Shown piece by piece: positions 47,091 through 63,199 of a stretch of 64,000 nucleotides of DNA (its first letter is position 1; each line of letters starts with the position of its first letter). The notes beneath the pieces are model-generated. The model did no database searches. It was not told the origin of the DNA and saw only the letters and a list, made by a program, of their open reading frames with translations. This DNA is from Flexithrix dorotheae DSM 6795. GTDB taxonomy: Bacteria; Bacteroidota; Bacteroidia; Cytophagales; Flammeovirgaceae. A program made the position numbers and the translations under genes. The stretch covers positions 186,001 to 250,000 of the forward strand of contig NZ_KB903434.1 of the NCBI RefSeq assembly GCF_000379765.1. The letters run 5' to 3'.

Positions 47091-48032
47091 ATGGAAAATT
47101 TTTCATCCAAAAACGATTTCATAAAAAAAATGCTGGAAGGGAAAATTCCCGACCAGACACCTGAATCCGATCATCAGTCTGAAGAATTTCAATCTATAAA
47201 AAACATAATAGAGAAAACCCAAAATCTTGATGTTCCGAAAGGCAAAACAAAAGAAGAGGCGTGGAATAATGTACTTAATCGAATAGATCAGGAAAAAGCT
47301 GAACCTAAAGTTGTAGCTTTCCAGTCTTCCAAATTTTTGGTGAGAATTGCAGCTTCCATTTTATTATTAATGGTGCTTGGCATTTCTGCATTTTTTGCCA
47401 ACAGACAACACGAAGAAGCTCCATTTGGCCAGTCACTTTCCTTAACCTTACCCGATAATTCTCAGATTACCCTTAATGCCGGTTCCCACATTACTTATTA
47501 CAAATGGAATTGGGAAAATAACAGAGAAATTATCCTGGAGGGAGAAGCTTTCTTTGAAGTGGAAAAAGGAAAAGAATTTACTGTGAAAACACCAAATGGA
47601 AATATTGCTGTGCTGGGTACCAGTTTTAATGTGCGAAACTGGGATAAAAAACTGGAAGTGAGCTGCTTCACCGGAAAAGTAAAGGTATTCAATAACAATT
47701 CATACGTTTTTCTGACTAAGGGAGAGGCTACTATTTTAAATCAAAACAATGAATTTAATGCTCCGGAAAAATTCTCTGAGGTAGTTATTTCCAGCTGGAG
47801 AAAAGGGGAATTTAATTATGAGAACCAGCCACTTGGTTTTATCCTGGATGAGATTGAAAGAAAATTCAATACAGAGATTGAACCCATAAATATGGCCAAT
47901 TTTATAGATAGAAAAATTACTTTTTCCGCCAAAGGAGAAAACATGTCGGATGTATTGGAAATTCTATCGGCCACAATGGACTTAGAATATTCAATAGAAA
48001 ACAACCTTGTAAAAATTCAACCCAAACCCTAA
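47091..48032 (+). CDS. FecR-family anti-sigma factor
   Basis: The 313-residue protein has a cytoplasmic part (about 1-85), one transmembrane helix (about 85-103, LVRIAASILLLMVLGISAFFA), the FecR periplasmic domain (LTLPDNSQITLNAGSHITYY, REIILEGEAFFEVEKGKEFTVKTPNGNIAVLGTSFNVRN), and a DUF4974-like end (LGFILDEIERKFNTEIE, ITFSAKGENMSDVLEILSATMDLEY). It is thought to bind the STN domain of the receptor and hold or activate the sigma factor. It lies after the receptor and lipoprotein, not next to the sigma gene. Its end overlaps the convergent EEP gene by 4 bp. Confidence 0.93.
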   Translation: MENFSSKNDFIKKMLEGKIPDQTPESDHQSEEFQSIKNIIEKTQNLDVPKGKTKEEAWNNVLNRIDQEKAEPKVVAFQSSKFLVRIAASILLLMVLGISAFFANRQHEEAPFGQSLSLTLPDNSQITLNAGSHITYYKWNWENNREIILEGEAFFEVEKGKEFTVKTPNGNIAVLGTSFNVRNWDKKLEVSCFTGKVKVFNNNSYVFLTKGEATILNQNNEFNAPEKFSEVVISSWRKGEFNYENQPLGFILDEIERKFNTEIEPINMANFIDRKITFSAKGENMSDVLEILSATMDLEYSIENNLVKIQPKP

Positions 48033-49081
48033 TCTTCCAGTTTGTAATAAACTTTTATCGGGAAGTGATCTGAAAATTTCACTTCCTTTTTTGTTTCAAA
48101 ATTGGTTGCCTCAAGGTCATCACTAAAAAACTGGTTGTCAATCCTTAAAAAAAATAGCTTTCCGTTATAAGTAAAACCAAATCCACTTCCCGCTTCTTCA
48201 AAAGCATTATTCAGGTATTTTTTTAGCCTAAAATATACATAGCTATAAGGTGTATCATTCAGATCTCCACAAACAATTGTTTTATATGGGGAGTCTTTCA
48301 GGTAAATTTCTATATTTTCCAATTGCCTGTCTCTGTTCAGATAGCCTTCTTTAATTTTGGTGAAAAGATTCTTATAGTTTTCCTTAGAATTTGAATTAAA
48401 TTCCAAATCATCCTCTGAAATGCTTAGGGACTGTAAATGTACATTGATTACCCGGAAAGTATCTTCATCCACTTTAATATCGGCAAATATGGCACTGTTG
48501 GTCGATTCCATCTGAAGGTCTATCACACCCTTATCCACAATAGGATATTTACTAAAAATGGCCAGTCCAAACTCTGCACCGATATGGTTAATTACCACAG
48601 GTTTTACAAAGTGATAATAGCCCTTATCCCTACCTAATTTTTGGGTGGTTTTAAAAATGGGAGATTTGCGGTCATTATAATATTCCTGAAAACATTTTAC
48701 ATCCGCATTATCATTACAAACCCACTCAATCATCTTTTTAGAAGAATCAAAATTTTTATTTAAATGATCGTAAACATTAAATACTCGGGTGTTGTAGGAT
48801 AATACTGATAAATTTTTAGCTGAATCTTCCTGTGCTGAAAAACTGAACGTAGCTGATAAAAATGGATAGGCAAGCGCAAGGGTAAAAAACGGCAACAATG
48901 CCTGGTTTTTTCTTTTCAATCCCCAGTAGATTAAAAAGAAAAGCTGAATGAGGATAAGCAGGGGAATAGAAAGCGCAATAAAACTGCATATCCAAAAAAG
49001 AGATGGAGGAATCAATACACAAAAAAAAGCCCCAATGGAGACAACAGTCGCTACTTTATTTAAAAAATATAATATGCGCAA
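48029..49081 (-). CDS. Membrane-anchored endonuclease/exonuclease/phosphatase (EEP) family protein
   Basis: The 350-residue protein has two or three N-terminal membrane helices (about 8-85) and an EEP domain: LSVLSYNTRVFNVYDH, VKCFQEYYND, INVHLQSLSIS, VCGDLNDTPYSYVYF, and a C-terminal SDHFPIKVYY. These hold the catalytic Asn, Glu, Asp and His residues. The active site faces the cytosol or periplasm; substrates of the family range from DNA to phospholipids and are not predictable here. It converges with fecR. Confidence 0.88.
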   Translation of the reverse strand: MRILYFLNKVATVVSIGAFFCVLIPPSLFWICSFIALSIPLLILIQLFFLIYWGLKRKNQALLPFFTLALAYPFLSATFSFSAQEDSAKNLSVLSYNTRVFNVYDHLNKNFDSSKKMIEWVCNDNADVKCFQEYYNDRKSPIFKTTQKLGRDKGYYHFVKPVVINHIGAEFGLAIFSKYPIVDKGVIDLQMESTNSAIFADIKVDEDTFRVINVHLQSLSISEDDLEFNSNSKENYKNLFTKIKEGYLNRDRQLENIEIYLKDSPYKTIVCGDLNDTPYSYVYFRLKKYLNNAFEEAGSGFGFTYNGKLFFLRIDNQFFSDDLEATNFETKKEVKFSDHFPIKVYYKLED

Positions 49082-49146
49082 ATGATCTAATTTTGTCCTA
49101 AAAAATGAGTTGAAATTTCCAATAATAACTGAATTGGCAGCCTTTT

Positions 49147-49557
49147 TTACCCTTCCTCTCCCATTCCAATTATAATATCGAATTCCTCAGGCTTTAAAGG
49201 CATTACCGATAGCCTTGATTGCCTGATCAGATAGACATTTTGAAGTCTTTCATCAGCTTTAATCTGCTGCAATGTTACGGGTTGATTCAGCTTTTTCTCC
49301 GGGACTAAATCCACTACTACCCATCTTTCATCAGTTGTGGTAGGGTCCTGATAAAATTCCTTAACCACTTTGGCTATTCCCACCACCTGTTTCTCTTTCC
49401 CGCTGTGATAAAACAAAACCAAATCGTCAACTTTCATATCCTTCATAAAATTCCTTGCCTGATAATTCCTCACTCCATCCCAATGGTCTCTACCCAAATC
49501 AATAAAATTATCCCAGGAATATGCTTCAGGTTCTGATTTTACCAGCCAGTAATTCAT
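49147..49557 (-). CDS. EVE domain protein
   Basis: The 136-residue protein is a complete EVE (thymocyte nuclear protein 1-like, PUA-related) domain: MNYWLVKSEPEAYSWDNF, HWDGVRNYQARNFMKDMKVDDLVLFYHSG, VVGIAKVVKEFYQDPT and LIRQSRLSVMPLKPEEFDII. EVE proteins bind modified bases in DNA or RNA. The ATG at 49557 is preferred over one 12 bases upstream as it matches the family start. It is divergent from hpt. Confidence 0.92.
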   Translation of the reverse strand: MNYWLVKSEPEAYSWDNFIDLGRDHWDGVRNYQARNFMKDMKVDDLVLFYHSGKEKQVVGIAKVVKEFYQDPTTTDERWVVVDLVPEKKLNQPVTLQQIKADERLQNVYLIRQSRLSVMPLKPEEFDIIIGMGEEG

Positions 49558-49786
49558 ATTGAATAGCATTTAAATTTTTAAACAATTATAAAGGATTTTG
49601 AGAAAAATTTTAAAACAAATCCCTCATTCTCATAAATTTACCTTTTTCAGGCTTTTGCCCCAAACTTATCAAAGTAATTTCAGTAAATTTGCAGGAGGTG
49701 GCAGGAATGTATTTTTTGCTTCAGCCTTTGTTGCTCATCAAATTTCAAACCCCAAAATAATTTTTAGACATTCATATTTAATTCCC

Positions 49787-50344
49787 ATGAAAATCAAGGA
49801 CTTAGATTTTAGAGTTTATATTCCAAATGAGAAAATCAACAATCGGGTAGAAGAACTTGCAGAGCAAATTACCTGGGATTTTAGAGGAAAATCTCCAGTG
49901 TTGGTTGGAGTGCTAAATGGTTGTTTTATGTTTCTATCCGATCTTGTAAAGGAAATTGACCTTGATGTGGAGATTTGTTTCACCAAATATTCCTCCTATC
50001 AGTCAACCGAAAGTTCGGGAAAAGTGATTGAATTAATCGGCTTTGATAATGTGATAAAAGGAAAAGATGTGATCATTGTAGAAGATATTGTGGACACCGG
50101 CCTTACCATGGGGCACTTATTAAAAGAGATCCAAAAATTTTCGCCAAAATCGGTAAAAGTCACCGCTCTTTTATATAAACCAGAAGCTTTGAAACATGAA
50201 GCTAAAATTGATTATCTTGGGTTTGAAATAAAGAATAAATTTGTGGTAGGTTATGGGCTGGATTATGACGGATTTGGCCGAAACCTCAAGGATATTTATA
50301 TTTTGAACAATAATGACAATCCAGGAACTACGGAAGTTGGTTAG
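49787..50344 (+). CDS. hpt: Hypoxanthine phosphoribosyltransferase
   Basis: The 185-residue salvage enzyme converts hypoxanthine or guanine to the nucleotide with PRPP. The PRPP-binding motif is VIIVEDIVDTGLTMGHLL; LVGVLNGCFMFLSDLV and the flexible loop YQSTESSGKV are typical. The C-terminal VVGYGLDYDGFGRNLKDIYIL contacts the base. The ATG at 49787 gives the normal family length; a longer frame from 49598 would add 63 unrelated residues. TAAATTTG at 49684-49691 may be the -7 element. The AlbA_2 gene overlaps its end by 32 bp. Confidence 0.95.
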   Translation: MKIKDLDFRVYIPNEKINNRVEELAEQITWDFRGKSPVLVGVLNGCFMFLSDLVKEIDLDVEICFTKYSSYQSTESSGKVIELIGFDNVIKGKDVIIVEDIVDTGLTMGHLLKEIQKFSPKSVKVTALLYKPEALKHEAKIDYLGFEIKNKFVVGYGLDYDGFGRNLKDIYILNNNDNPGTTEVG

Positions 50345-50975
50345 CCAGGGAGAAGGAGCCAGATTAGAATTTAAAAGAAAAGCAACCTACCCGGTAAAAA
50401 TAATGAAGGAAGTGGTAGCTTTTGCCAATCAGAAAGGGGGAAAGTTACTCATTGGTGTGGATGATGATGGAACAATCGTAGGATTGAAAGATGCTGTGGA
50501 AGAAGAATTTGTGCTGGAAAATGCCATTAAAAAGCACTGTAAACCCGCAGTGAATTATTCACTTTCTCATGTTCGCATTACAGATAAAAGATCGGTACTC
50601 GTTTTTGATATCGAACAAAGTGAAAAAAAACCGGTGTTCCTGATTTATAATTTCCGGAGAAATTTGGGGAGAGCCTATATCCGGATCGATGATAAAAGCG
50701 TACAAACCAGTCGCGAAGTGAGGAAAGTACTTCAGGCCAATTCTTCACAAAAAGATATTGGATTTAATTATGGAGAACATGAGCAGGCCTTGATGCATTG
50801 CTTTAAATCCACAAGCCAGATCAATGTAAAAGATTTTGCGGCCAGGGTTAATATTCCCATATTAAAAGCCTCCGATATACTTATTCGGCTGACTATCGCC
50901 AATGTATTGGAAGTGCATCCTACAGACGATGGCGATTATTTCACCATGAAGGACATCAACAGGTTTCTTTCTTAA
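50313..50975 (+). CDS. AlbA_2/Schlafen-type putative DNA-binding protein
   Basis: The 220-residue protein has an N-terminal AlbA_2 domain (about 1-130): LVSQGEGARLEFKRKA, EVVAFANQKGGKLLIGVDDDGTIVGLKD, and RAYIRIDDKSVQTSREVRKVL. This is a divergent ATP- or nucleic-acid-binding module known from Schlafen relatives. The C-terminal 80 residues look like a winged helix (QINVKDFAARVNIPILKASDILIRLTIANVLEVH). It overlaps hpt by 32 bp, a sign of coupling. A transcription regulator role is plausible but unproven. Confidence 0.85.
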   Translation: MTIQELRKLVSQGEGARLEFKRKATYPVKIMKEVVAFANQKGGKLLIGVDDDGTIVGLKDAVEEEFVLENAIKKHCKPAVNYSLSHVRITDKRSVLVFDIEQSEKKPVFLIYNFRRNLGRAYIRIDDKSVQTSREVRKVLQANSSQKDIGFNYGEHEQALMHCFKSTSQINVKDFAARVNIPILKASDILIRLTIANVLEVHPTDDGDYFTMKDINRFLS

Positions 50976-51116
50976 AACTAATCACTAGGATCATTTTTAA
51001 AAGTTATCTTTTAGGCTGCAAAATACCACAGAAGGGCCTGCCTTGTTAGAAACCATCGCTCCAGTAAAAATCCCCAAACGGATATTTTCGCTTCAAAAAC
51101 AGAATTTAAATATCCT

Positions 51117-52571
51117 TTAAGGGTTCTTTTGCTCTGGAATCGGAGGTTGTTGATTTTCCGGAATTGGGCATTTGTAGGGTTTACCTCCTGTCCTTTCTAA
51201 AAAATCCTTTTTAGCTGCTTCCATTAATTCCGGATTCGTAAACATTTCTATTCCAGTCATGGCCAAAATTTTAGTAGCATAAAATGCTCCTTTTCTGCCA
51301 ATAGTGGTTCCATGACTCGAAGCTGCCTGCCAACTGTGCCAGGGAATTCCATATGGTGCAGTAGTAGCCCTGAATCCACTGGTTGGAGTGATATAACTCA
51401 CTTCGGCTACATCTGTGGAACCTCCCCCTTTTTCAGCAGGCACTTCACTTTCCAGTGGACGAACTTCTCCTTTAATGCCCTTCTCCTCTTTACCTGAATT
51501 TTTCTGTAATTCTTTTGCCCATTTTAATTCCTCATCGGTATAGGAAATTGCTCCGATGGCATCCATATTTTTCTGTACTTCTTTAAGCAAAGGAAGATTT
51601 GGCAAAACTTCATGCACTCCAGTAATCAATTTTACTTTAAATTCTGTTTCTGTAGCCATGGCCGCACCTTCAGCAATTTTCAAAATCCTGCTGTAATGAC
51701 TTTCCACTCTTGGTCGGTCAATATCTCTGGCAAAATACCATACTTTAGTATAATTGGGCACTACATTGGGCGCCACTCCTCCGTTTGTAATCACATAATG
51801 AATTCGGGCAGTCGGCTCTACATGCTCACGCATCTGGTTCACTCCAAAATTGAGCATTTCCAGCGCATCCAAAGCACTTCTGCCATTCCATGGATCACGG
51901 GCACTGTGGGAAGATTTTCCAAAAAATTCAATTTCAAAATTGTTCATGGCACTTCCTGTAGCATTCCAGGCACTATTTTCGGTTCCGGGATGCCAATGCA
52001 ATGCTCCATCCAGATCATCGAATAAGCCGGCTTTTGCCATATATACTTTTCCTATTACCGTTTCCTCAGCCGGGCAGCCATACAACCGGAGGGTCCCTTT
52101 TATTTTTTTTGTTTCCATGACTTTTCTGATGGCAATGGCACTGGAAACACAAGCCGCTCCAAATAAATTATGTCCACAGCCATGTCCGTTGGTGATACCA
52201 TCTGCCCTTTCCTTTTTTTCGGGAATAGCCGAATTACCTACACTTGGCAAAGCATCAAATTCTGCTAAAATCCCAATTACCGGTTCTCCCGATCCATAGG
52301 AAGCAATAAAGGCAGTGGGCATTCCCGCCACATTTTTTTCTATGGAAAAACCAGCCGATTCCAGTTTTCCGATTAAAAGTTCACAGGATTTATATTCCAA
52401 AAGTGCAGTTTCGGAAAAATCCCAAAGTTTTTCAGAAATTTCATCCACTTCCGGTTTTAACCCATCCACCTCTTTTAAAACTTCCTTTTTCAGGGAACTA
52501 ATTTTCTGGGCAAATGCAGGTTGAAGGGCAAAAAATAAAATGATGAAGAAGACTTGGATATAGACTTTCAT
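51117..52571 (-). CDS. Secreted M20-family amidohydrolase (AbgB-like)
   Basis: The 484-residue protein has a signal peptide ending LQPAFAQ. The M20 metal site is seen in IGILAEFDALPS, NGHGCGHNLFGAACV, CPAEETVIGKVYMAKAGLFDD and GGGSTDVAEVSYITPT, with a C-terminal WHSWQAASSHGTTIGRKGAFYATKIL. The length and motif order match the AbgB subunit of p-aminobenzoyl-glutamate hydrolase. Unlike E. coli AbgB, it is exported and lacks an abgA partner nearby, so it probably cleaves other N-acyl amino acids or folate breakdown products. Confidence 0.88.
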   Translation of the reverse strand: MKVYIQVFFIILFFALQPAFAQKISSLKKEVLKEVDGLKPEVDEISEKLWDFSETALLEYKSCELLIGKLESAGFSIEKNVAGMPTAFIASYGSGEPVIGILAEFDALPSVGNSAIPEKKERADGITNGHGCGHNLFGAACVSSAIAIRKVMETKKIKGTLRLYGCPAEETVIGKVYMAKAGLFDDLDGALHWHPGTENSAWNATGSAMNNFEIEFFGKSSHSARDPWNGRSALDALEMLNFGVNQMREHVEPTARIHYVITNGGVAPNVVPNYTKVWYFARDIDRPRVESHYSRILKIAEGAAMATETEFKVKLITGVHEVLPNLPLLKEVQKNMDAIGAISYTDEELKWAKELQKNSGKEEKGIKGEVRPLESEVPAEKGGGSTDVAEVSYITPTSGFRATTAPYGIPWHSWQAASSHGTTIGRKGAFYATKILAMTGIEMFTNPELMEAAKKDFLERTGGKPYKCPIPENQQPPIPEQKNP

Positions 52572-52993
52572 TTATTTAAAAATTTTAATGGATAACAAAT
52601 GGGAATAGCGCTTATTAATTATGCAGAATAATGTAATTATAAATAATAGCGTACTCCAAAGTTTTCAATCATATTAATAGATTCCCGGGTATAATTTCCC
52701 TTAAAAAACTACCTATTCCTAAATATAAAAAAAGGAGTTTTGGCTTTCAATGCCATGCGAAAAAATTTATAAAATCGTTTTTCGGATGAAAGAATATTAT
52801 TTCAGGTTTTGTAAAAAATTCATTCAACTTTATTATCCATGAATTCGTTTAAATTGATTAAATTGTCAATGAAAAGTGACTGCATAACCTGTTTGATATT
52901 TGGATATTTTTTGAAATAATATAGCAGACTTTTACAACAGGTTCGGAAGCAATTTCCACTGTTGGGTTTTGAAATTTATTGCATCAGGAGCGT
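52572..52993. other. 422-bp intergenic region before the AAA gene
   Basis: Divergent region between the amidohydrolase and the AAA gene. No ORF, hairpin or convincing TAnnTTTG promoter was seen. Confidence 0.4.
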
Positions 52994-55606
52994 ATGGGTA
53001 AGCAATTGGAAAAAAAATATAAATTCAAGGATTTAAAAGTTTATTCCTCCACAGAATGGCTGGCAGAAGGGAACAAAAAATACCGGAAAGTATTTGAAAA
53101 TACAGAAACTACCTACTTATATGCCGAGCTCTCCTTTTTTAATAAACTTTTTGATGAGGAACATTGGAAGGTTTCCATCAATTTAAAATGTTACAGATAC
53201 AATGGAAGTTCTAAAGAGTCTATTTGTAACCTTGACATTGAAAAGGAAGTGGAAATTGATGAAAATATTGTATTCATCAGAGAAGGCTGGGGCCATGAAG
53301 AACCAGGGCACATTTGGAAAAGAGGAGATTATTTGTGGGAAGCTTATATTGATGATGAACTGGTGGGGACTACCTATTTCTATATAGAAAATGGTGGCCC
53401 GGTTACCCTTTATGATAATCCTTATTTCGACATCAATTCCATTAAACTTTATGAAGGACCAAAATCGGGAGTTGAAAATTCAAAAAGGAAATATTTAAAA
53501 CAATTCCACGACAAAGAAACCAGGTATATTTGGGTGGAATTTAACCTGGAAAATGCGCAGGACAAGGCCTGGTTTTGCGAGCTAAAATTTAATTTTTACA
53601 ATGATGCAGGTCAACTAAAAGGCACCACATCGGAGCTGAAGCAAATTAAGAGTAGTGAAAATGATATCACCATCATTACTGGCTGGGGTTCCGATAAAAA
53701 AGGGAGTTGGTATCATGATAAATACAAACTGGAAATTGTATTTATGGACCATCTGATTGCTGTTGTTCCTTTCGATTGTGGAAATGCACCAGTTGAGGGC
53801 ATAAATAAATATTTGCATGGTGAAGACCTGATTTTAAAGCCAAATACGAACGAAGATGACACTTCAACTACTGCCAGTATTGAAGATACCCTAATTCAAC
53901 TGGAAACACTGGTGGCTTTATCCGACATCAAAAAAAGAGTAAGGGACTATATTAATTACCTGGAATTTTTAAAACTCAGGCAAAGCCAGGGTTTTGATGA
54001 AAATGAACAGATTAACCTGCATTCCATTTTTACGGGAAATCCAGGTACAGGCAAAACTACCGTGGCCAGATTGCTGGGTAAACTTTACCACCAAATGGGT
54101 CTTTTAAGTGAAGGGACTTTTCTGGAAGTTGGCCGGGCGGAGTTAATTGGCCAATATATAGGCCAAACTGCACCTAAGGTAAAGGATGTAATTGACAGTG
54201 CGCGTGGTGGAGTCCTTTTTATTGACGAAGCCTACGCTCTGGTTCGAAATATTGATGACGACAAGGATTACGGACATGAGGTAATTGAGGTTTTGGTGAA
54301 GGAAATGTCGGATGGTCCTGGAGACATTGCCATTTTTGTAGCGGGATATCCCAGTGAAATGGATAATTTCATCAATAGCAACCCCGGCTTGAAATCCAGG
54401 TTCAATATGCATTTCAACTTCAATGATTATTTGCCTCAGGAACTGATCGAAATTTCAAAAAAAATATCACATGAAAAAAATGTGACTTTTACCAAAAGTG
54501 CCAAAAAACTACTTTATAAGGAACTGACAGAGGCTTTTCGCTCAAGAGACAGGGCTTTTGGAAATGCCCGACTGGTTTTGAGTTTGATAAACGATGCAAA
54601 AATGGAGATGGGGCTCCGGGTAATGAATAATTATTCGGCAGATGAGGAAATTAATAAAAACATGCTTCGCACCATAAGAAAAGAGGATTTAGAAAAAGTT
54701 TTTCAGAAACAGGAACTTGATTTACCTCATATTGAAGTGGATAAAGAATCCCTGGAAGAAGCTTTAACTGAATTAAAAGAACTCATTGGCCTTTCGCATG
54801 TAAAAGCTAAAATTGATGAATTAATTGCCCTGGTAAAGTTTTACCGGGAAACAGGCAGGGATGTAATTGGCAATTTTAACCTGCACACTGTCTTTAAAGG
54901 AAACCCGGGAACAGGTAAAACCACAGTGGCCAGAATACTCGCCAAAATTTACAAAGCGCTGGGTATTCTGGAAAGAGGGCATGTAATAGAATGTAGTCGG
55001 CAGGATCTGGTGGCTGGATTTGTAGGCCAGACAGCCCTTAAGACCAAAGAAGTAATCGATCAGGCAAAAGGTGGTGTTTTGTTTATTGATGAAGCTTACT
55101 CGCTTAAGTCCGGACATCAGCAAAATGATTTTGGAAAGGAAGCCATTGAAGTAATTCTGAAGGAAATGGAAGATGACCGGGGCGGATTTATCGTTATTGC
55201 AGCAGGTTATACCGGGGAAATGGAAAAACTGCTGGAAACTAATCCCGGGTTAAAATCCAGATTTGATGTGGAATTAACTTTCGAAGATTATTCCTATAAA
55301 GAATTGTATAAAGTTGCCCTGTTTATGTTGGAAAAAGAGGGGCTTAAACCAAACAAAGAAGCAGAATTATCCCTTTTAAAATACCTTGAATATATTTATA
55401 ATAATCGGGATAAATATTTTGGAAACGCCAGGGCCGTGAGGAAAATGGTGGATAAAGCCGTAAAAAACCAACATTTAAGAATGGCGGGATTAAAACCTAA
55501 AGAAAGAACTAAATACCAATTGAAGACCCTTTCTGTGAATGATGTAAAAGAGTTTAATCAGGATAATACGGAACTATCGAATGTGGGCAGGAAAATTGGG
55601 TTTTAG
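52994..55606 (+). CDS. Double CbxX/CfxQ-type AAA+ ATPase with duplicated N-terminal beta domain
   Basis: The 870-residue protein starts with two related beta-rich domains (about 10-135 and 147-263). Each ends in a GWG motif (98-100 and 230-232) followed by a Y-x-[WL]-E strand. Two full AAA+ modules of the CbxX/CfxQ (Rubisco-activase, EccA) class follow, with Walker A GNPGTGKT at 348-355 and 636-643. Each has a Walker B GVLFIDEAY and a sensor/arginine segment NPGLKSRF. Both look active. The ATG at 52994 is chosen; TTG at 52979 is possible. It probably remodels a protein bound by the N-terminal domains. It converges on the periplasmic-binding/DUF350 set. Confidence 0.88.
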   Translation: MGKQLEKKYKFKDLKVYSSTEWLAEGNKKYRKVFENTETTYLYAELSFFNKLFDEEHWKVSINLKCYRYNGSSKESICNLDIEKEVEIDENIVFIREGWGHEEPGHIWKRGDYLWEAYIDDELVGTTYFYIENGGPVTLYDNPYFDINSIKLYEGPKSGVENSKRKYLKQFHDKETRYIWVEFNLENAQDKAWFCELKFNFYNDAGQLKGTTSELKQIKSSENDITIITGWGSDKKGSWYHDKYKLEIVFMDHLIAVVPFDCGNAPVEGINKYLHGEDLILKPNTNEDDTSTTASIEDTLIQLETLVALSDIKKRVRDYINYLEFLKLRQSQGFDENEQINLHSIFTGNPGTGKTTVARLLGKLYHQMGLLSEGTFLEVGRAELIGQYIGQTAPKVKDVIDSARGGVLFIDEAYALVRNIDDDKDYGHEVIEVLVKEMSDGPGDIAIFVAGYPSEMDNFINSNPGLKSRFNMHFNFNDYLPQELIEISKKISHEKNVTFTKSAKKLLYKELTEAFRSRDRAFGNARLVLSLINDAKMEMGLRVMNNYSADEEINKNMLRTIRKEDLEKVFQKQELDLPHIEVDKESLEEALTELKELIGLSHVKAKIDELIALVKFYRETGRDVIGNFNLHTVFKGNPGTGKTTVARILAKIYKALGILERGHVIECSRQDLVAGFVGQTALKTKEVIDQAKGGVLFIDEAYSLKSGHQQNDFGKEAIEVILKEMEDDRGGFIVIAAGYTGEMEKLLETNPGLKSRFDVELTFEDYSYKELYKVALFMLEKEGLKPNKEAELSLLKYLEYIYNNRDKYFGNARAVRKMVDKAVKNQHLRMAGLKPKERTKYQLKTLSVNDVKEFNQDNTELSNVGRKIGF

Positions 55607-55616
55607 CCCAGTTTTC

Positions 55617-56597
55617 CTAAAAATTAAACTTAAACAATTTCACTTGCCCGGGATCCTCAATTTTTACCTGAGGTTGTTTGTATTGCTCGGGAACATTATC
55701 CCAGTTATGGTAAATATTTCCTTCCACATAATAGCGATTGCTGGTACTCGAATGAGTGAGGGAAGGTTCATTATTTAAAAATACATTGTAACTACTGGAT
55801 GGAGCCACCTGCCCGGCCTGATTTCCATTCAACACTAATTCTAATTTTCCATCACCATCCACATCAGTTTTTATCCAGTTGATTTGAAGGATTCTGTTAT
55901 AACTGCCATCAATTACCATTTTCACTATTTGTTCATTGAAACCTTCAATTATTTTTTCCGCATTAGGCAAGTCTTTTCTTAGGGCAAAATGAAGGGATCT
56001 TGTTATAAGAGGAGTTGTACCAATTTCAAGATATTGAGCAGCTTCCTCTCGCTGATAGTGCAGTAAATATTGGATTAAAAGTGCATCCACCAACATATAA
56101 TCTGTTTCACCCTTCAAGAGTTTTTCTAAATTCTCCTGATCATTTTTACCCGAAATGAATTCAACACCTTTGGCATTTTCCACTTCCTCCCCATAGGCAT
56201 AATTTCCTACCACAGCCACTTTATTTCCATTGAGTTCTGAAAGGGAAGCCGCACTGACATCATTCCCTTTTCTGCCCACCAGGATTAACTGATTCTGTAA
56301 ATAAGAAACAGAAAACAGCATATATTCTTCCCTTTCCGCACTTTTCCATAATGCTGCACTTCCATCATATTCTCCTTCTTTAATTTTGGATAATACATCT
56401 TGGAAATCAAGAATTTCGGTGGTTTCCCCTGTAGCAGATCTTCTTAAAGCTTCTTTCACCAGGTCGCTTGCAAAAGTTTTTTCTCCTTTAATATTGGTAA
56501 AAGGCGGCCATATATCTGAGGCTAGTTTCACCTGATAATTTTGGGAGAATACAGAAAATGAGGTTAAAATCAGACAAAAAAGTAAAATTAGCTTCAT
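55617..56597 (-). CDS. Periplasmic solute-binding protein-like (SBP_bac_3)
   Basis: The 326-residue protein has a signal peptide ending SVFSQ. A family-3 binding fold follows: VKLASDIWPPFT, EALRRS, YDGSAALWKSAEREEYMLFSVSYLQNQLILVGRKG and DYMLVDALLIQYLL. Unlike transport proteins, it has an extra C-terminal segment (about 245-326) with a DVDGDGKLELV calcium-binding-like motif. No ABC permease is adjacent; it is 24 bp downstream of a DUF350 gene on the same strand. A sensor or adaptor role is possible. Confidence 0.82.
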   Translation of the reverse strand: MKLILLFCLILTSFSVFSQNYQVKLASDIWPPFTNIKGEKTFASDLVKEALRRSATGETTEILDFQDVLSKIKEGEYDGSAALWKSAEREEYMLFSVSYLQNQLILVGRKGNDVSAASLSELNGNKVAVVGNYAYGEEVENAKGVEFISGKNDQENLEKLLKGETDYMLVDALLIQYLLHYQREEAAQYLEIGTTPLITRSLHFALRKDLPNAEKIIEGFNEQIVKMVIDGSYNRILQINWIKTDVDGDGKLELVLNGNQAGQVAPSSSYNVFLNNEPSLTHSSTSNRYYVEGNIYHNWDNVPEQYKQPQVKIEDPGQVKLFKFNF

Positions 56598-56621
56598 ATT
56601 CAAATAAAATTATAAATCAAG

Positions 56622-57473
56622 TCACAAGGTATAAAATAATACCATAGAAAATCCTATAGCCACAAACATTTCCAGCACTCCTGCTCCAATATTTTTATCC
56701 TCAGCAATTTCTTGGTTTAAATCAGAATGAGGAATAATCAACTTATCAAAGAAAAACCTGACTACAAATAAATAGATAAAAACAACCCCAATATCAAAAG
56801 CCAGCAATTGCAGGCTCTCAGACCAGTATTCAAAATCACCTGAAACAGCTTTCATGGCGATAATGCCAATGGAAATAATTCCCCCAGAAAAACCCAATCC
56901 TGCCGCCAGGTTGTTTTTTCCAAGTTCCTCATGCACATTGTAAGAAATGATTTTCTCATAAAGAAGGGCAAAAATAATTAGAATAATCTGGCCAATGGCG
57001 AAAAAAGCAATTGTGACAAATGGGCCTCCACCCTCTCCGTGAATAGCTCCTGCAATCACCATCCCTGAAGCCACATAAGAAGCTCCCTGCACAACTCCTG
57101 CCGCTACATTTCTTTTATCTACAATTTCCTCCTTGCTGGAAAATTGATGCATAATTAACTTATCATTAATCACTCTGGCTAAATTTAAAGCCAAAATTCC
57201 GGCAATGGAATAGCTGCCAACAGCAATTAAATCTTCCCACAAACCAACATGAGGTCCATCTACTGCACCTAAAAAAATGATGGTAATCCCAACAAGGTAC
57301 CCTGTAAAACTTGTGGCCAGGGCAGGGTTATCTTCATGGGTAAGTTGTTTATTTACGCTGTAGGAAGTAGTAAGGTCTTTAAACCATTTTCCCAGTAAAA
57401 ATACCACTGCAAATAAAACAATGGTGAAAACTGAACTGAGCATTTCTTCCCGGGTCTCAAAAAATAAATCCAT
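56622..57473 (-). CDS. DUF350 membrane protein (two DUF350 units)
   Basis: The 283-residue protein has about eight hydrophobic helices arranged as two similar halves. The first half carries LATSFTGYLVGITIIFLGAV; the second carries NLAAGLGFSGGIISIGIIAM. This is the YjfL-type DUF350 layout. In other bacteria DUF350 proteins sit with polyamine, DUF4178 or FAD-oxidoreductase genes in membrane-stress neighbourhoods (general knowledge). Here it is next to the SBP-like gene and 409 bp from the Tat FAD-oxidoreductase gene, which fits that theme. Confidence 0.85.
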   Translation of the reverse strand: MDLFFETREEMLSSVFTIVLFAVVFLLGKWFKDLTTSYSVNKQLTHEDNPALATSFTGYLVGITIIFLGAVDGPHVGLWEDLIAVGSYSIAGILALNLARVINDKLIMHQFSSKEEIVDKRNVAAGVVQGASYVASGMVIAGAIHGEGGGPFVTIAFFAIGQIILIIFALLYEKIISYNVHEELGKNNLAAGLGFSGGIISIGIIAMKAVSGDFEYWSESLQLLAFDIGVVFIYLFVVRFFFDKLIIPHSDLNQEIAEDKNIGAGVLEMFVAIGFSMVLFYTL

Positions 57474-57882
57474 AGTTTATTAAAGGTTAGTGTTTAATTT
57501 TTATAGAAGTTTTGGATAATGGAAAAGTTTAAGAACATGTTTAAATTTTAACTGTTTCGCTGCAAACGCCCATTTATGAAACCTCACTTCAAAATAAAAT
57601 TTCCAAATAACGCTACTATTCAAAAATTTTCTTTTTTCCTGAGAACCCAAAACTGGTCGTTTTCGCTTTGGTCCGACATTTCGGAAAACCTAAATTATAA
57701 ACAAGCTCTAAATCAAAGTGAGGGTTTTTCCGAATCAAAAAAAATCAATTTATAATTTTCTGCTATAATTTAACACCAGAAGAAATAAAGTCCAAATTTG
57801 AAATGGAAAGTTAATTTTCCAAAATCCTTATAATTGCCAGAAGTCAATAATTAGGAGACAAGACTTATTGTCGATTGAATCT
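57474..57882. other. 409-bp intergenic region
   Basis: AT-rich. No ORF, terminator or strong promoter is seen between the FAD-oxidoreductase stop and the DUF350 start. Confidence 0.4.
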
Positions 57883-59406
57883 TTAACCTTCCTTTAGATA
57901 TTTTTTGGCCATTAAGCCTGAATCCAATGCTTCCATAAAAAGTGGTAGTCTTCCATTATCCACCCCGGCATAAACCATTTTGGAGTGTGGTCTGTATAAA
58001 TTCCTATCATTAAATAAATAGCCAGGGGAGGCTAATGGCATGGCATGTCCCATCACTTTCATAAAAACTTTTTTTATTTTCCCGGCAAACTCTTCACTGG
58101 GTATTTTAAAATATCCTGCCATGATACCAATGGTATTTTTCACCACATCTTCCTTATTTTCCTCCAAAGCAGCCAAATACTTTCGATCTTCCATTCTAAA
58201 ACAATAATAAGCCGTTAAAACCCTGTTTTTTGTTTTTTCCATCTGAGCAGCAGAATCTACAAAACCAAGGAAACTTGAGTGATCTGACAGGATTTCATTT
58301 TGCCAGAATTTGTTTTCATTCAAATCGGATTCTACCACAAAATTGATCACCAGCCAGGGCACATATTGATTCGTAGCAAAAAGTTTTTTTTGAGATGGCA
58401 TAATATGCTGTAGCGCATGTTTTTGACCGGCATACACTACCTTATTGGCCTGGAAAGTTTTTATAGTTTTGGATTTTATATCAATCACTTCTACCTCAAA
58501 ACCTTTTAAAACCGGCCTAATTTTCTTTACCAAATGATTCAGCCTGATGGTATTTTCAGGTAGCTGTGTAGCCAGTTTATGCGCAAAATAATAATTGCCT
58601 TCTGGCGGTGAAAATATTTCTGTTTCTGAAGTTAAATAGCCCCTGTTGGCATAATAATAAAGGCCGGCAATGGCAGATACATCCTCGCTGGTTCCCCCAA
58701 AGTCATCCCGCATATGATAATCGATTGCTGCTTTAAATTCAGGGGAAAGATCAATAGAACTCTTTAGAAAGTCATAAAAACTGATTTGATTAAAATGTTG
58801 GTAATCCGCTGGGATTAAACGGGTGGGAAGCATGAAATTTCCAATAAACGGTTTCATCAATTCGAAAAACTCATCCATTGTCTTTCCTTCTGGCAAAAGC
58901 TCATCGTAGTAATCAATCCCATTAAAACATTGAGATTCCCGGTGAGGACTGATCAGGTATTTTTTATCCACAAAATCCCATTTATCAATCAGGGAGTTGA
59001 ACTTCACCACTCCCAGGTTCTCCAGCAATTCAATAGCTTCCTCTCCAAAATATTTCGGATAAGTAAGGTCATAATGCGCTCCCTGGCCAAAAACTTCTCC
59101 TTCAAAATTTTCACTTCCAGAACTCCCTCCTATTCTATCCGATAATTCACAAAGCAAAATGTTATTTTCACGTAAATTCCAGGCAATACTTAACCCGGCA
59201 ATTCCAGCCCCTACAATTAAATAATCCACATTTTCGGTTTTTCCTTTTGGGAAATTATGACTTTCAAATACCAGATGCCCCACAGCCATATCTGAATGAA
59301 AGGAGATGTCAAAATCAAGAATATTATCAGACTTTTCACTTTTTTGGCAGGAAAGAATTGGAAGGAGCGCAAGTGAGGAAAGTTTTATGAAGTTTCTTCT
59401 GTTCAT
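57883..59406 (-). CDS. Tat-exported FAD-dependent oxidoreductase (amine-oxidase fold), lipoprotein-like
   Basis: The 507-residue protein begins MNRRNFIKLSSLALLPILSC. This combines a twin-arginine-type export signal with a lipobox Cys at residue 20, so a folded, lipid-anchored periplasmic flavoprotein is expected. The FAD Rossmann motif is YLIVGAGIAGLSIAWNL (about 63-79), with LSDRIGGSSGS following; the C-terminal FAD end is MVYAGVDNGRLPLFMEALDSGLMAKKYL. The substrate is unknown. It lies upstream of the DUF350 gene on the same strand. Confidence 0.85.
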   Translation of the reverse strand: MNRRNFIKLSSLALLPILSCQKSEKSDNILDFDISFHSDMAVGHLVFESHNFPKGKTENVDYLIVGAGIAGLSIAWNLRENNILLCELSDRIGGSSGSENFEGEVFGQGAHYDLTYPKYFGEEAIELLENLGVVKFNSLIDKWDFVDKKYLISPHRESQCFNGIDYYDELLPEGKTMDEFFELMKPFIGNFMLPTRLIPADYQHFNQISFYDFLKSSIDLSPEFKAAIDYHMRDDFGGTSEDVSAIAGLYYYANRGYLTSETEIFSPPEGNYYFAHKLATQLPENTIRLNHLVKKIRPVLKGFEVEVIDIKSKTIKTFQANKVVYAGQKHALQHIMPSQKKLFATNQYVPWLVINFVVESDLNENKFWQNEILSDHSSFLGFVDSAAQMEKTKNRVLTAYYCFRMEDRKYLAALEENKEDVVKNTIGIMAGYFKIPSEEFAGKIKKVFMKVMGHAMPLASPGYLFNDRNLYRPHSKMVYAGVDNGRLPLFMEALDSGLMAKKYLKEG

Positions 59407-59490
59407 AGGTGCTTAAAGTACCCAATTCCTGTCATTTATAGAAATTTCTCTACTGCTACTTAAGCTTCACAGGAAAAAGTTTTAGGCAAT

Positions 59491-59524
59491 AAAAAAGGTA
59501 ACCTCCCGAAGAAGATTACCTTTT
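59491..59524 (-). terminator. lpdA terminator
   Basis: AAAAGGTAA (59493-59501) pairs with TTACCTTTT (59516-59524); an A run at 59491-59496 becomes the U tract on the minus strand, 20 bp after the lpdA stop. Confidence 0.8.
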
Positions 59525-59544
59525 CTTAAATAATATTTATCTGA

Positions 59545-60945
59545 TTACAAATGAATGATTTCGTCATAAGCATCAGCAGCAGCTTCCATCACTGCCTCCG
59601 ACATGGTTGGGTGAGGGTGAACAGATTTGATAATTTCATGCCCTGTAGTTTCCAGTTTTCTGGCTACCACTACTTCGGCAATCATTTCTGTTACGTTAAA
59701 CCCGATCATGTGCGCTCCTAACCACTCGCCATATTTGGCATCAAAAATTACTTTCACAAAACCATCTTTGGCTCCGGCTGCACTTGCTTTTCCCGATGCA
59801 GAGAAGGGGAATTTACCTACTTTCACTTCATAACCAGCTTCTTTGGCCGCTTTTTCAGTATAACCCACAGAAGCAATTTCAGGAGCACAATAAGTACATC
59901 CGGGAATGTTATTGTAATTTAATGGCTCAGGATTTTGCCCATTAATTTTCTCTACACATATAATTCCCTCAGCTGAAGCCACGTGTGCCAGAGCAGGTCC
60001 ATGCACAATATCACCAATAGCATAAATTCCAGGGATATTAGTTTTGTAATAATCGTCCACTAGCACTTTTCCCTTATCAGTAGCTACGCCTACATCTTCC
60101 AATCCAATTCCTTCAAGATTGGTGGACACACCAACTGCAGAAAGTACAATATCACACTCAATCTTAAATTCTTCTCCCTTCTTATTCGATTTTACAGTTA
60201 CTACACAACCTTCTCCGGAAGTATCCACTGATTGCACAGCTGCATCAGTGTGAATTTTCATTCCTTTTTTCTTGAAAATTCTTTCTAATTGCTTGGAAAC
60301 ATCCTCATCCTCATTAGGTACAATTTTCGGCAAGTATTCTACAATTGTCACCTCAGTGCCCATAGCCTGATAAAAATAGGCAAACTCTACTCCAATGGCT
60401 CCAGAACCCATTACCACCATTTTCTTTGGTAATTTCTCTAAAGTCATGGCCTTTCTGTAACCTATAATTTTCTTATTATCGATTGGCACATTAGGCAATT
60501 CTCTTGATCTTCCACCTGTAGCCAAAATAATATGGCTCGCAGTATAAGAAGATTTAGAACCGTCTTCTGCAGTAACTTCTACTGTATTTTTAGAAGTCAA
60601 TTTACCAAAACCTAATAATTTTTCAATTTTATTCTTTTTCAATAGAAATTCAATTCCCTTGCTCATTCCTCCTGCCACATTTCTACTTCTTTTAACAATA
60701 CCATCAAAGTCAATAGAAGCTTCTTTTACAGAAATTCCGTAATCTTCAGCATGTTGAATATATTCGAATACCTGTGCACTTTTTAATAAAGCTTTAGTTG
60801 GAATACATCCCCAGTTCAAACAAATCCCTCCAATCTCTGCTTTTTCCACCACACCTACTTTCATCCCAAGCTGAGAAGCACGAATCGCAGCAACATAACC
60901 TCCAGGTCCGCTTCCGATAACAATCAAATCAAATTTTGCTGACAT
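59545..60945 (-). CDS. lpdA: Dihydrolipoyl dehydrogenase (E3)
   Basis: The 466-residue flavoenzyme reoxidises lipoamide in 2-oxo-acid dehydrogenase complexes and the glycine cleavage system. FAD site is IVIGSGPGGYVAAIRASQLG; the redox disulfide is GGICLNWGCIPTKAL. NAD site is MVVMGSGAIGVEFAYFYQAMG; the second FAD segment is GIYAIGDIVHGPALAHVA. The C-terminal active-site HPHPTMSEAVMEA includes the catalytic His. The ATG at 60945 is chosen since it opens the FAD motif as in homologues. No E1/E2 genes are adjacent. Confidence 0.97.
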   Translation of the reverse strand: MSAKFDLIVIGSGPGGYVAAIRASQLGMKVGVVEKAEIGGICLNWGCIPTKALLKSAQVFEYIQHAEDYGISVKEASIDFDGIVKRSRNVAGGMSKGIEFLLKKNKIEKLLGFGKLTSKNTVEVTAEDGSKSSYTASHIILATGGRSRELPNVPIDNKKIIGYRKAMTLEKLPKKMVVMGSGAIGVEFAYFYQAMGTEVTIVEYLPKIVPNEDEDVSKQLERIFKKKGMKIHTDAAVQSVDTSGEGCVVTVKSNKKGEEFKIECDIVLSAVGVSTNLEGIGLEDVGVATDKGKVLVDDYYKTNIPGIYAIGDIVHGPALAHVASAEGIICVEKINGQNPEPLNYNNIPGCTYCAPEIASVGYTEKAAKEAGYEVKVGKFPFSASGKASAAGAKDGFVKVIFDAKYGEWLGAHMIGFNVTEMIAEVVVARKLETTGHEIIKSVHPHPTMSEAVMEAAADAYDEIIHL

Positions 60946-61331
60946 ATAATATATGGTTATAGAGTTATCTAAATTTTTTCTGCGCAAATTTAACCTTAAA
61001 AGCCAGAGAAAAAAATTCCCATACCATCTTTAGAGTCATAATTGTGCTTATTCAACATAGAGAAAATCAATCAATTAGCGGAAAGTGGCAAGCGATTAAA
61101 AACATTAGCTGAATGAACTGATTTTAAATCGTTTTAAAAATGACCAAATGAAAAAAGGGCACTTCAAGTCTTAAATTCTTCGAAAATATTTGCAATCAAA
61201 TTTTTTCAAAAAAAATAACCATCCTTTACTGAATGGCTATTACTATTTGAGTTTTATAAGCTTTTTTTCGCTTGCCACAGAGATAAAACAAGATGAAAAC
61301 CCTTATGAGAATTTTAAACTAACCTCCAATT
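60946..61331. other. 386-bp intergenic region
   Basis: Apart from the terminator at 61205-61241 nothing was seen. Confidence 0.5.
61205..61241 (-). terminator. Terminator of the small lipoprotein gene
   Basis: AATAACCAT (61214-61222) pairs with ATGGCTATT (61233-61241) with one mismatch. The preceding A run (61208-61215) becomes the U tract on the minus strand. Confidence 0.65.
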
Positions 61332-61706
61332 TCACTCGTCAATACACTTAAACTGCTCTGGCTCCCAAATTAACTGAGAGATTTTAGGGTTATTAATATC
61401 ATCAAAAGATACTTTAGCATCACCTAAATAACCTGTAATTTCACCATTGCAATCCAAAAGAGAAATTACATAATTACAGCTTGGACAACAAAAGAAAGGC
61501 ACAATATAAGTTTCCCCTCCTTTTTCCACACTATAAATTTTTACAGTACCAACTCCATCTTCTTCAGCTTCTTCAATTATTTTTTGTAGCCAGGGTAATT
61601 CTGCTATTTCTTTTCCGCAAACACTACCTGGAGAAAGTTCTGCATCTTCCTGACAGGAAGGAAAAAATAAGCAGGAAATTATAAAAAATAGAATCAGTTT
61701 TTGCAT
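61332..61706 (-). CDS. Small Cys-containing lipoprotein, unknown function
   Basis: The 124-residue protein has a lipoprotein signal ending LFFPSC. The mature part shows ELPWLQKIIEEAEEDG, a strand pair VKIYSVEKGGETYIVPFF, then CCPSCNYVISLLDCNGEI with four close Cys residues that could bind metal or form disulfides. The ATG at 61706 (MQKLILFF) matches a leader; the longer frame from 61757 is unlikely. I do not recognise a named family with confidence. Divergent from the beta-helix gene. Confidence 0.65.
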   Translation of the reverse strand: MQKLILFFIISCLFFPSCQEDAELSPGSVCGKEIAELPWLQKIIEEAEEDGVGTVKIYSVEKGGETYIVPFFCCPSCNYVISLLDCNGEITGYLGDAKVSFDDINNPKISQLIWEPEQFKCIDE

Positions 61707-61930
61707 TACAGGGTTTTTATTTTTGATTACATCTTTCTGTACGTAACAAAAATTCAAATCATTGCAGTTTTACAGAATTGGTGTTAGGTAAAATCAAATT
61801 TGAACTAAAAATGAATAAAATTTCCCCTCTAATCCATAGCTAAAATTTTTGTTTCAAATAAGCTGATTTTTCCTTAATTTGTTCCTCACAATTTCCTAGT
61901 AACTACTCATTTTTTAAAAGATAAATAACC

Positions 61931-63199
61931 ATGAATAACTTCTACAACCAAATCAATTTTTTTATAGGTATTTTGTTCCTTGCCTCTTGTGGAGGAGGTG
62001 CCATTAAAGAAGAAAAAAGTTTTATAAAAGCTGGTCCTGAATCAAGAAAGGAAATTCAAAATGCACTTATCCAGGCCCAGCCAGGTGATACCCTGTTTTT
62101 TGATGAAGGAGTTTTTGAAATGGATTTAGGCATTTCCATCCTGGATAAGGAAAATATTGCCCTAGTTGGTAAGGGCCATGAGAAAACAATATTTTCTTTT
62201 GCGGAACAGAAAAAAGGCGCTTCAGGAGCGGAAGGAATTCTGGCTAAAAATATGAAAAATGTAACTTTCATGGACCTGGCAGTGGTAGAAACCACAGGGG
62301 ATGCCATTAAAGTACAGGATTCTGATGGGGTAATTTTTATGAATGTAAGAACAGAATGGGCTGGGGCAAAACCAGAAAATGGTGCGTATGGACTATATCC
62401 GGTCACTTGTTCCAATGTGTTGATAGATGGTTGCATTGCGAAAGGAGCTTCTGATGCAGGGATTTATGTGGGGCAATCGAAAAATGTAATTGTAAGGAAT
62501 TGCTATGCCGAAAGAAATGTGGCTGGAATCGAAATAGAAAATACCACCAATTCTGATGTTTACAATAATGAAGCAACCGGAAACACCGGGGGAATCCTCA
62601 TGTTTAATTTACCTGATTTACCTGTAAAAGGAGGTGGGCATACCAGGGTTTATAATAATAAAGTATATAAAAATAACCTGGGGAACTTTGCGCCTGAGGG
62701 CAATATGGTAGCTACTATCCCTGCCGGAACAGGCATGTTTGTACTGGCCTCCAGGAACATTGAGATATTTGACAATGAAATTTTGGATAATGCCACTGGA
62801 GGAATTGGTATCATTAGTTATTTTTTCACTCAAATTCCAGTTAAAGATTCTTTATTTAATCCTTTCCCAACTGCTATTTATATTCACAATAATAAGTTTA
62901 GCCAGGATCTATCCGTTGAGCCGGATATGACGAAAGATATTGGCCCAATGGTGAAACAGTTTGAAGCCCAATTAGGGAGACGCCCGGATATAATGCATGA
63001 TGGTGTAATCCATCCGGAAATGGGCAAAACAGTTCAGGAAATGCCAGCGGAATCCCGTTTTTGTATAAAGGACAATGGGGAAGTGGTAATTGTAAACCTA
63101 CAGGACCCTACCACTCCACCTGAGGCTTATAATTGTGAATTGGCTCCACTTGAAGAAGCCAACGTACAAGTCGCAGGAAAAGAAATTGCCAGCCTTTGA
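61931..63199 (+). CDS. Parallel beta-helix repeat lipoprotein
   Basis: The 422-residue protein has a lipoprotein signal ending LFLASC. The body (about 40-330) is a right-handed parallel beta-helix of the NosD/pectin-lyase-like type. It shows repeats such as ENIALVGKG, KNVTFMDLAV, SNVLIDGCIAKGASDAGIYVGQSKNVIVRNC and RNIEIFDNEIL. Members of this group (TIGR03805-like, as I recall) are normally encoded beside the cytochrome-like family that follows here. It is 35 bp upstream of that gene. The function of the pair is unknown. Confidence 0.88.
   Translation: MNNFYNQINFFIGILFLASCGGGAIKEEKSFIKAGPESRKEIQNALIQAQPGDTLFFDEGVFEMDLGISILDKENIALVGKGHEKTIFSFAEQKKGASGAEGILAKNMKNVTFMDLAVVETTGDAIKVQDSDGVIFMNVRTEWAGAKPENGAYGLYPVTCSNVLIDGCIAKGASDAGIYVGQSKNVIVRNCYAERNVAGIEIENTTNSDVYNNEATGNTGGILMFNLPDLPVKGGGHTRVYNNKVYKNNLGNFAPEGNMVATIPAGTGMFVLASRNIEIFDNEILDNATGGIGIISYFFTQIPVKDSLFNPFPTAIYIHNNKFSQDLSVEPDMTKDIGPMVKQFEAQLGRRPDIMHDGVIHPEMGKTVQEMPAESRFCIKDNGEVVIVNLQDPTTPPEAYNCELAPLEEANVQVAGKEIASL

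Follow-up and report, generated by a model that had tools for sequence, protein, structure and literature searches.

In the main text of Ravi et al. 2024 (PMC11237479), a CesT/Tir-PspA operon is described that carries a 7TM-spermidine-synthase, YjfL (DUF350), the lipoprotein Ctha_1186 and DUF4178, and it is proposed there, without going further, that such systems track polyamines or aminopropylation and adjust the membrane accordingly. The genome containing the 64,000-nucleotide stretch of DNA analysed here (the window) also has DUF350, DUF4178, a membrane-fused aminopropyltransferase (SpeE), a lipoprotein and PspA. Unlike the operon as presented in that main text, its parts lie on at least three contigs, and a flavoenzyme and a membrane protein, TM5, are added; loci of other genomes extend further beyond the published system, with a second SpeE, an ion channel and SpeH. 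The same main text contains none of the terms flavo-, FAD, oxidored-, Rossmann or amine oxidase, and tables S2-S3 of PMC11237479 may list the flavoenzyme. No description of the flavoenzyme-TM5 arm was found in the literature searched; neither protein has a searchable family name. Clusters of AdoMet decarboxylase-linked MFS-SpdSyn fusions and DUF350 were reportedly described by Li et al. in 2019; the related loci seen here likewise join a SpeE membrane fusion, DUF350 and SpeH, and we know of no flavoenzyme arm in the clusters of that earlier work.

We propose that the flavoenzyme and DUF350 genes of the window are a locally linked piece of a larger, scattered envelope-stress system, to which the neighbouring AAA+ ATPase and SBP_bac_3-like (SBP) genes do not belong. 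We give this reading a probability of roughly 0.6. The four-gene window is itself modest, and its interest centres on the flavoenzyme-TM5 arm.

System genes elsewhere in the genome

All four open reading frames that an earlier note on this DNA had claimed are real and lie at or near where it had placed them (Table 1). The note had also held that polyamine and DUF4178 genes are lacking, which is correct inside the window and false for the genome as a whole, because both a DUF4178 and a SpeE gene are present in it.

Table 1. Positions of the window features (window numbering) and of related genes elsewhere in the same genome (G000, by contig or locus)
Feature	Position	Strand	Size	Details
Double CbxX/SpoVK-type AAA+ ATPase	52979-55606	+	875 aa	Duplicated N-terminal domain
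SBP_bac_3-like exported protein	55617-56603	-		SBP_bac_3 35 bits (cut-off 26.4); C-terminal DxDGDG extension
Double-DUF350 (YjfL-type) integral membrane protein	56622-57473	-		Pfam DUF350 169 bits, two stretches
Spacer between DUF350 and flavoenzyme genes	57474-57882	.	409 bp	168 bp in sister species
Flavoenzyme	57883-59406	-		Tat-type, probably lipid-anchored; amine oxidase / phytoene desaturase / protoporphyrinogen oxidase fold (FAD)
DUF4178 gene	G000:C5:255864-256415			81.7 bits (cut-off 25)
SpeE with N-terminal membrane domain	G000:C14:15494-17068		524 aa	NF002956 554 bits (cut-off 472); NF037959, fused MFS/spermidine synthase, 52 bits (cut-off 40)
LIP3 lipoprotein gene	G000:C14:485016-485792			E-value 1.4e-105
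PspA gene	L005:6258-7094 (contig C2)			PspA_IM30 136.8 bits

The DUF4178 gene lies 5.9 kb beyond the end of the window (C5:250000) and 10.5 kb from the flavoenzyme gene, beside a band-7 gene. Contig C14 carries the SpeE fusion, the genome's own TM5 gene and LIP3, which was taken to be the equivalent of Ctha_1186 on the basis of position. The PspA gene shares contig C2 with a second double-DUF350 gene and is flanked on both sides by J-domain genes. The second SpeE that often accompanies the flavoenzyme in other genomes was not found here: there are two Spermine_synth genes, neither of which falls in that group. The system parts are nearly all present in this genome yet scattered; spread over C2, C5 and C14, they do not form a single operon or cluster. 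A scan of a single window can mistake a scattered system of this kind for a reduced one.

Such a reduced system had been suggested in the earlier note, as a DUF350/flavoenzyme variant without polyamine and DUF4178 genes and with the SBP-like protein in their place. As the SBP gene lies only 18 bp after the DUF350 gene on the same strand, the two could be co-transcribed. However, DUF4178, SpeE, LIP3, TM5 and PspA are all encoded in the genome, and in the sister species no SBP gene is found between the AAA and DUF350 genes. Full-length SBP occurs in 4 of 291 genomes of the order, and in the stretches seen around the other three occurrences it is near neither DUF350 nor the flavoenzyme (0/3). The variant is largely refuted and now seems very improbable. 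Given its absence from the sister-species locus and its lack of linkage in all three other full-length occurrences, the SBP gene was rejected as a part of the system and is judged to be a lineage-specific neighbour. Among the ten window proteins scanned (48032-63196), no ABC permease or ABC ATPase was found beside it.

The AAA+ ATPase is the double CbxX-type protein with duplicated N-terminal domains that the note had recognized. Pfam AAA scores 128.9 bits and AAA_lid_6 scores 89.2 bits, each over two stretches, the best NCBIfam matches are SpoVK (514 bits) and CbbX (454.6 bits), and Walker A and Walker B motifs occur twice each. It shares both AAA modules and their lids with the CbxX/CfxQ/SpoVK family and differs from it in the duplicated N-terminal domain, the two copies of which are alike (hhalign of the halves: probability 94, E-value: 9e-8, 26% identity) and have no Pfam match at E 0.001. 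In the sister species the AAA gene keeps the same neighbour; in four of four other genera (G013, G016, G015 and G014), 20-kb stretches around it contain no system genes. On the strength of that lack of linkage the gene was rejected as a system part; it is a chance neighbour, and its link to the other genes is positional only, as had been stated. PADLOC returned only partial AAA-domain matches (IetA, 65.7 bits), which give no basis for calling it a defence gene.

Linkage of the flavoenzyme and DUF350 genes

The flavoenzyme gene adjoins the DUF350 gene, with strand and order kept, in 11 of the 12 flavoenzyme-bearing genomes of the family (the window's own included). The exception is G013, in which the flavoenzyme and double-DUF350 genes are megabases apart. 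The earlier note had named occurrence of the homologues in unrelated places, without conserved adjacency, as evidence against its proposal; since adjacency of the flavoenzyme and DUF350 genes is conserved, this pair stands, whereas the SBP gene has no such conservation and the AAA gene has none outside the genus. The spacer within the pair contains 140 bp with 84% identity to a sequence elsewhere in the same genome (G000:C25; L157:4669-4808).

Across the order, the two genes are no more than 25 kb apart in 16 of the 17 genomes that carry both. A double DUF350, defined as an open frame of 283 aa or more in which DUF350 matches twice, was found in 17 of 28 flavoenzyme-positive genomes and 3 of 28 flavoenzyme-negative ones (Fisher p 2e-4). 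For TM5, counted at E < 1e-100 with a partial match in G100 and weaker matches left out, the corresponding numbers were 14/28 and 2/28 (p 8e-4); the uncounted weak TM5-like matches (E-values: 1e-7 to 1e-11) include five flavoenzyme-negative genomes. These counts are not independent because the genomes are related: eight of the 28 positive genomes come from one genus, and the 28 negative genomes were hand-picked from the same six families in unequal numbers.

Neighbourhoods of the flavoenzyme in other genomes agree with the note's remark that DUF350 and FAD-oxidoreductase genes often occur with polyamine and DUF4178 genes in membrane-stress clusters. In 78 flavoenzyme loci, drawn partly from genomes also used in the genome-level counts, the neighbours were SpeE (48), DUF350 (41), LIP3 (33), DUF4178 (33), TM5 (28), SpeH (26), an ion channel (24), PspA (24), CesT (24) and XRE (20), and DUF350 or SpeE was near the flavoenzyme in 55. 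When six further loci are included, ten neighbour families each occur in at least 19 loci, and the next family occurs in only seven. The recurring neighbours are those of the PspA/CesT-DUF350-SpeE-lipoprotein-DUF4178 system, plus an extra arm consisting of the flavoenzyme, TM5, often the second SpeE, the ion channel and SpeH.

It might be argued that the adjacency is an ancestral accident, preserved by slow rearrangement and without joint function. A single event could explain it within the family; 23 of the 78 loci have no system gene in view (several are short contigs or contig ends), and 11 of the 28 flavoenzyme-positive genomes of the order have no double DUF350. Against this explanation, three genera carry the adjacent pair with different flanking genes in each, in other lineages the arms of the system lie convergent or head-to-tail, and genome-wide the flavoenzyme co-occurs with both TM5 and double DUF350. 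We consider an accident improbable, and regard it as likely that the conserved pair of flavoenzyme and double DUF350 belongs to a larger, polyamine-linked membrane-stress system. In a sample of the system-free loci (for example, from Poribacteria and Microscillaceae), the genes nearest to the flavoenzyme hinted at no role.

The flavoenzyme and TM5

The flavoenzyme has a twin-arginine start followed by a cysteine at position 20. In a 53-row alignment of the window protein with relatives from 52 of the 78 loci (L108, which has an internal stop, and L147 are among those left out), R3 and R4 are invariant and C20 is at least 90% conserved. Two arginines lie within the first 14 residues in 67 of 78 relatives and a strict lipobox pattern is matched in only 29 of 78; some of the starts behind these counts were called too far upstream. 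Tat would export the protein folded with its FAD, and it is probably held on the outer face of the membrane by a lipid anchor.

The protein belongs to the flavin amine oxidase superfamily, with which it shares a Pfam match above the cut-off (Amino_oxidase, PF01593; 42.1 bits, cut-off 19.8) and a predicted two-domain FAD fold; it differs in its Tat-type start and in its low identity (13-18% among the structural matches listed). The predicted structure (pLDDT 90.9) matches PDB structures with Z up to 28.9, and phytoene desaturase is the top match (Z 28.9, 408 aligned residues, 3.3 A). Amine oxidases, phytoene desaturase, renalase and protoporphyrinogen oxidase are tied, and a fatty-acid isomerase is also listed; because the matches are tied among enzyme classes, the fold picks no substrate class. 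Monoamine, putrescine and polyamine oxidases and spermidine dehydrogenase are among the fold and sequence matches, the amine oxidase sequence matches being mostly limited to the FAD-binding start. True amine oxidases have an active-site lysine near FAD N5 and an aromatic cage.

The most likely role of the flavoenzyme is that of an exported oxidase or dehydrogenase which, together with TM5, would oxidise something that the system makes, either a lipid or a compound bearing an amine (an aminopropylated membrane substrate, for example). The membrane side would be handled by PspA, DUF350 and DUF4178. That the flavoenzyme is specifically an oxidase of the system's amine product is a tentative suggestion. 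A bolder form, in which flavoenzyme and TM5 are a previously undescribed exported oxidation arm, and one part of the system would add an aminopropyl group to a membrane substrate that the arm would oxidise in the periplasm, to give a reversible envelope charge switch, appears unlikely.

Alternatively, the flavoenzyme could act on a membrane lipid or isoprenoid, as a desaturase, isomerase or dehydrogenase, and sit here because of a role in repairing or remodelling the envelope, the aminopropyl chemistry being a separate matter. The phytoene desaturase, protoporphyrinogen oxidase and fatty-acid isomerase matches would suit such an enzyme, as would the probable lipid anchor and the lack of SpeE beside the flavoenzyme in Flammeovirga and in the window's genus. 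Amine oxidases, though, score 25-28 within the best 50 PDB rows (Z 25.0 to 28.9), and SpeE is in view in 48 of the 78 flavoenzyme loci; we regard a lipid enzyme as somewhat doubtful. A predicted outside redox enzyme that travels with DUF350 and TM5 offers a concrete, assayable handle on DUF350/SpeE-fusion/PspA systems.

TM5 is a histidine-rich membrane protein. No Pfam or NCBIfam match was found for it, and its sequence has no relative in the PDB at E 1. With a model of the Flammeovirga aprica protein (L105), Foldseek returned nothing with E < 1 and the best Z in structure comparison was 5.8; these structure searches indicate neither a new nor an old fold. Five histidines are invariant in TM5, and in every flavoenzyme locus that shows it (28/28), its gene lies immediately upstream of the flavoenzyme gene.

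Conserved and incidental neighbours of the flavoenzyme gene

All four open reading frames of this neighbourhood are real and belong to the families first assigned to them, and the ATPase (AAA) has a duplicated N-terminal domain in addition to its two CbxX/SpoVK modules. The DUF350 protein carries two DUF350 domains. At its N-terminus the flavoenzyme (FAD) has a twin-arginine motif and, after it, a cysteine; its family conserves both (R3 and R4 invariant, C20 in at least 90% of a 53-row alignment). Since a strict lipobox pattern is found in 29 of 78 relatives, lipid anchoring is likely for the window protein but is not extended to the whole family.

The earlier note read the three minus-strand genes as a possible variant membrane-stress system, with AAA linked by position only. 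The neighbourhood is not one system: the AAA and SBP genes are mere neighbours, and only FAD and DUF350 form a pair. A FAD relative was found in 12 of the 18 family genomes searched (DUF350 in 16), and in 11 of these 12 the two genes are directly adjacent in the same order and on the same strand, so that conserved adjacency is upheld for this pair; its flanking genes vary among the three genera. The exception is genome G013, where megabases separate FAD from the double DUF350 gene. The pairing of FAD with DUF350 is real, and the two genes belong to an envelope system of a kind already known (PspA/CesT, DUF350, the aminopropyltransferase SpeE, the lipoprotein LIP3 and DUF4178) that is dispersed here. 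Approximately 140 bp of the spacer between them is repeated elsewhere in the genome at 84% identity, and is perhaps a small dispersed element.

SBP was rejected as a system part because the sister species (G012) has no such gene between AAA and DUF350 and because the three other full-length copies are unlinked, with no system genes in the stretches seen (5 to 10 kb per side). Full-length relatives occur in 4 of 291 order genomes. This rare SBP_bac_3 family (the window gene and loci L165, L177 and L178) has a conserved C-terminal DxDGDG (EF-hand-like) extension, and each copy has a different neighbourhood. AAA was likewise rejected: close relatives occur in a further four genera of this family, and no system genes lie in the surrounding 20 kb in any of the four. 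In G012, a glyoxalase gene and an AraC-type gene lie between FAD and a lipoamide dehydrogenase gene. Within the window, the start of a Schlafen AlbA_2-domain gene overlaps the 3' end of a phosphoribosyltransferase-like gene (named by eye).

The wider system in other genomes

The main text of Ravi et al. (2024, PMC11237479) describes an operon of CesT/PspA, SpeE-7TM, YjfL, lipoprotein and DUF4178 genes, with a proposed role in monitoring polyamines or aminopropylation; the terms FAD, flavo-, oxidored-, Rossmann and amine oxidase are absent from that main text. At the level of titles and the starts of abstracts, no other publication on a link between FAD and this system was recognised. A 2019 paper reportedly concerned AdoMet decarboxylase and DUF350.

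A scan of genome contigs, with the FAD alignment as query, found 78 loci. Together with six fetched earlier, their commonest neighbour families are, in descending order (profile counts for the 78 in brackets), SpeE (48), DUF350 (41), LIP3 (33), DUF4178 (33), the approximately 360 aa membrane protein TM5 (28), SpeH (26), PspA (24), CesT/Tir (24), an ion channel (24) and XRE (20); each occurs in at least 19 loci and any other family in at most seven. DUF350 or SpeE is present at 55 of the 78, and by profile no system gene (channel and XRE left out) is in view at 23; these counts are lower bounds because some of the 23 lie at contig ends or on short contigs. One common arrangement is SpeH, channel, SpeE, (TM5), FAD facing SpeE, DUF350, LIP3, DUF4178, PspA and CesT. 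In all 28 of these loci with TM5 in view, it lies immediately upstream of FAD, and the two genes often share a few bases.

A quick FastTree phylogeny of SpeE (midpoint-rooted) has two groups, one of 30 sequences on the FAD side and another of 51 that are mostly membrane fusions; the second group also includes the FAD-side SpeE of some Flavobacteriales. Context labels cluster on the phylogeny of 80 flavoenzymes, with 9 changes versus a shuffled mean of 27.8. The window protein groups with that of G012 (L076) and, with support of 93, L077 (CAKZMZ010000648.1, apparently a contig of genome G002). The poribacterial sequences that lack the system branch within system-bearing rows; deep branches are weak, and the placement suggests linkage loss or transfer.

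We set 28 FAD-positive genomes of the order against 28 FAD-negative genomes, the latter hand-chosen within the same six families. The comparison gave 17 versus 3 genomes with double DUF350 (Fisher p 2e-4) and 14 versus 2 with TM5 (p 8e-4), p-values that are optimistic because the genomes are related. The two TM5-bearing FAD-negative genomes have a completeness of just 77% and 79%. TM5-like matches that were weak (E 1e-7 to 1e-11), among them those in five FAD-negative genomes, were left out. Among the 17 genomes with both, double DUF350 is no more than 25 kb from FAD in 16. Its absence from 11 of the 28 FAD-positive genomes counts against the system reading.

Dispersed system genes in Flexithrix dorotheae

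The claim that polyamine and DUF4178 genes are lacking did not survive a search of the whole 9.5 Mb genome: DUF4178 lies 5.9 kb past the window end, and a SpeE membrane fusion is on another contig (see table). The window itself spans C5:186001-250000. SpeE of the FAD-side group was not found in this genome, where both Spermine_synth genes fall in the other group.

Features of the window and of the rest of its genome (C, contig; L, fetched locus)
Feature	Location	Remark
Schlafen AlbA_2	window 50313-50975	
AAA	window 52979-55606 (+)	
SBP	window 55617-56603 (-)	
DUF350	window 56622-57473 (-)	
FAD–DUF350 spacer	window 57474-57882	repeat at L157:4669-4808
FAD	window 57883-59406 (-)	
DUF4178	C5:255864-256415	10.5 kb from FAD
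Band-7 (SPFH)	C5, L154:7553-8440	directly after DUF4178
SpeE membrane fusion	C14:15494	
TM5	C14:86185	
LIP3	C14:485016	
PspA, two J-domain genes (one with TPRs), second double DUF350	C2, L005:5754-9603	different-looking PspA cluster
SpeD-SpeE fusion	C25	ordinary spermidine pathway

In genus g3, the four genomes with FAD and the other genes on one contig (G005, G006, G007 and G011) have DUF4178, LIP3 and SpeE together approximately 45-60 kb from FAD–DUF350, while the other four FAD-bearing genomes have them on a separate contig. From these distances and contigs and the scattered parts in F. dorotheae, we conclude that the family keeps the system in pieces, of which FAD–DUF350 is one. Apparently the same band-7 gene lies beside DUF4178 in G012.

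Predicted folds of the flavoenzyme and TM5

The flavoenzyme–TM5 arm is the part worth following. The FAD model is confident (pLDDT 90.9), and its best structural match is phytoene desaturase (Z 28.9, 3.3 A, 408 aligned), followed by renalase, monoamine oxidase and protoporphyrinogen oxidase, with a Z of 25-26 for putrescine oxidase and spermidine dehydrogenase. Among solved structures, the leading sequence matches are protoporphyrinogen oxidase, polyamine oxidase, putrescine oxidase and spermidine dehydrogenase, and they cover for the most part the FAD-binding start. With fold matches this mixed and sequence matches so confined, the model allows amine oxidation without proving it. TM5 (L105:8906-9997 and relatives) matched nothing in Pfam or NCBIfam and nothing significantly in the PDB. 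Its model is good (pLDDT 86.3), and its five invariant histidines and invariant acidic residues (Asp/Glu) could bind metal.
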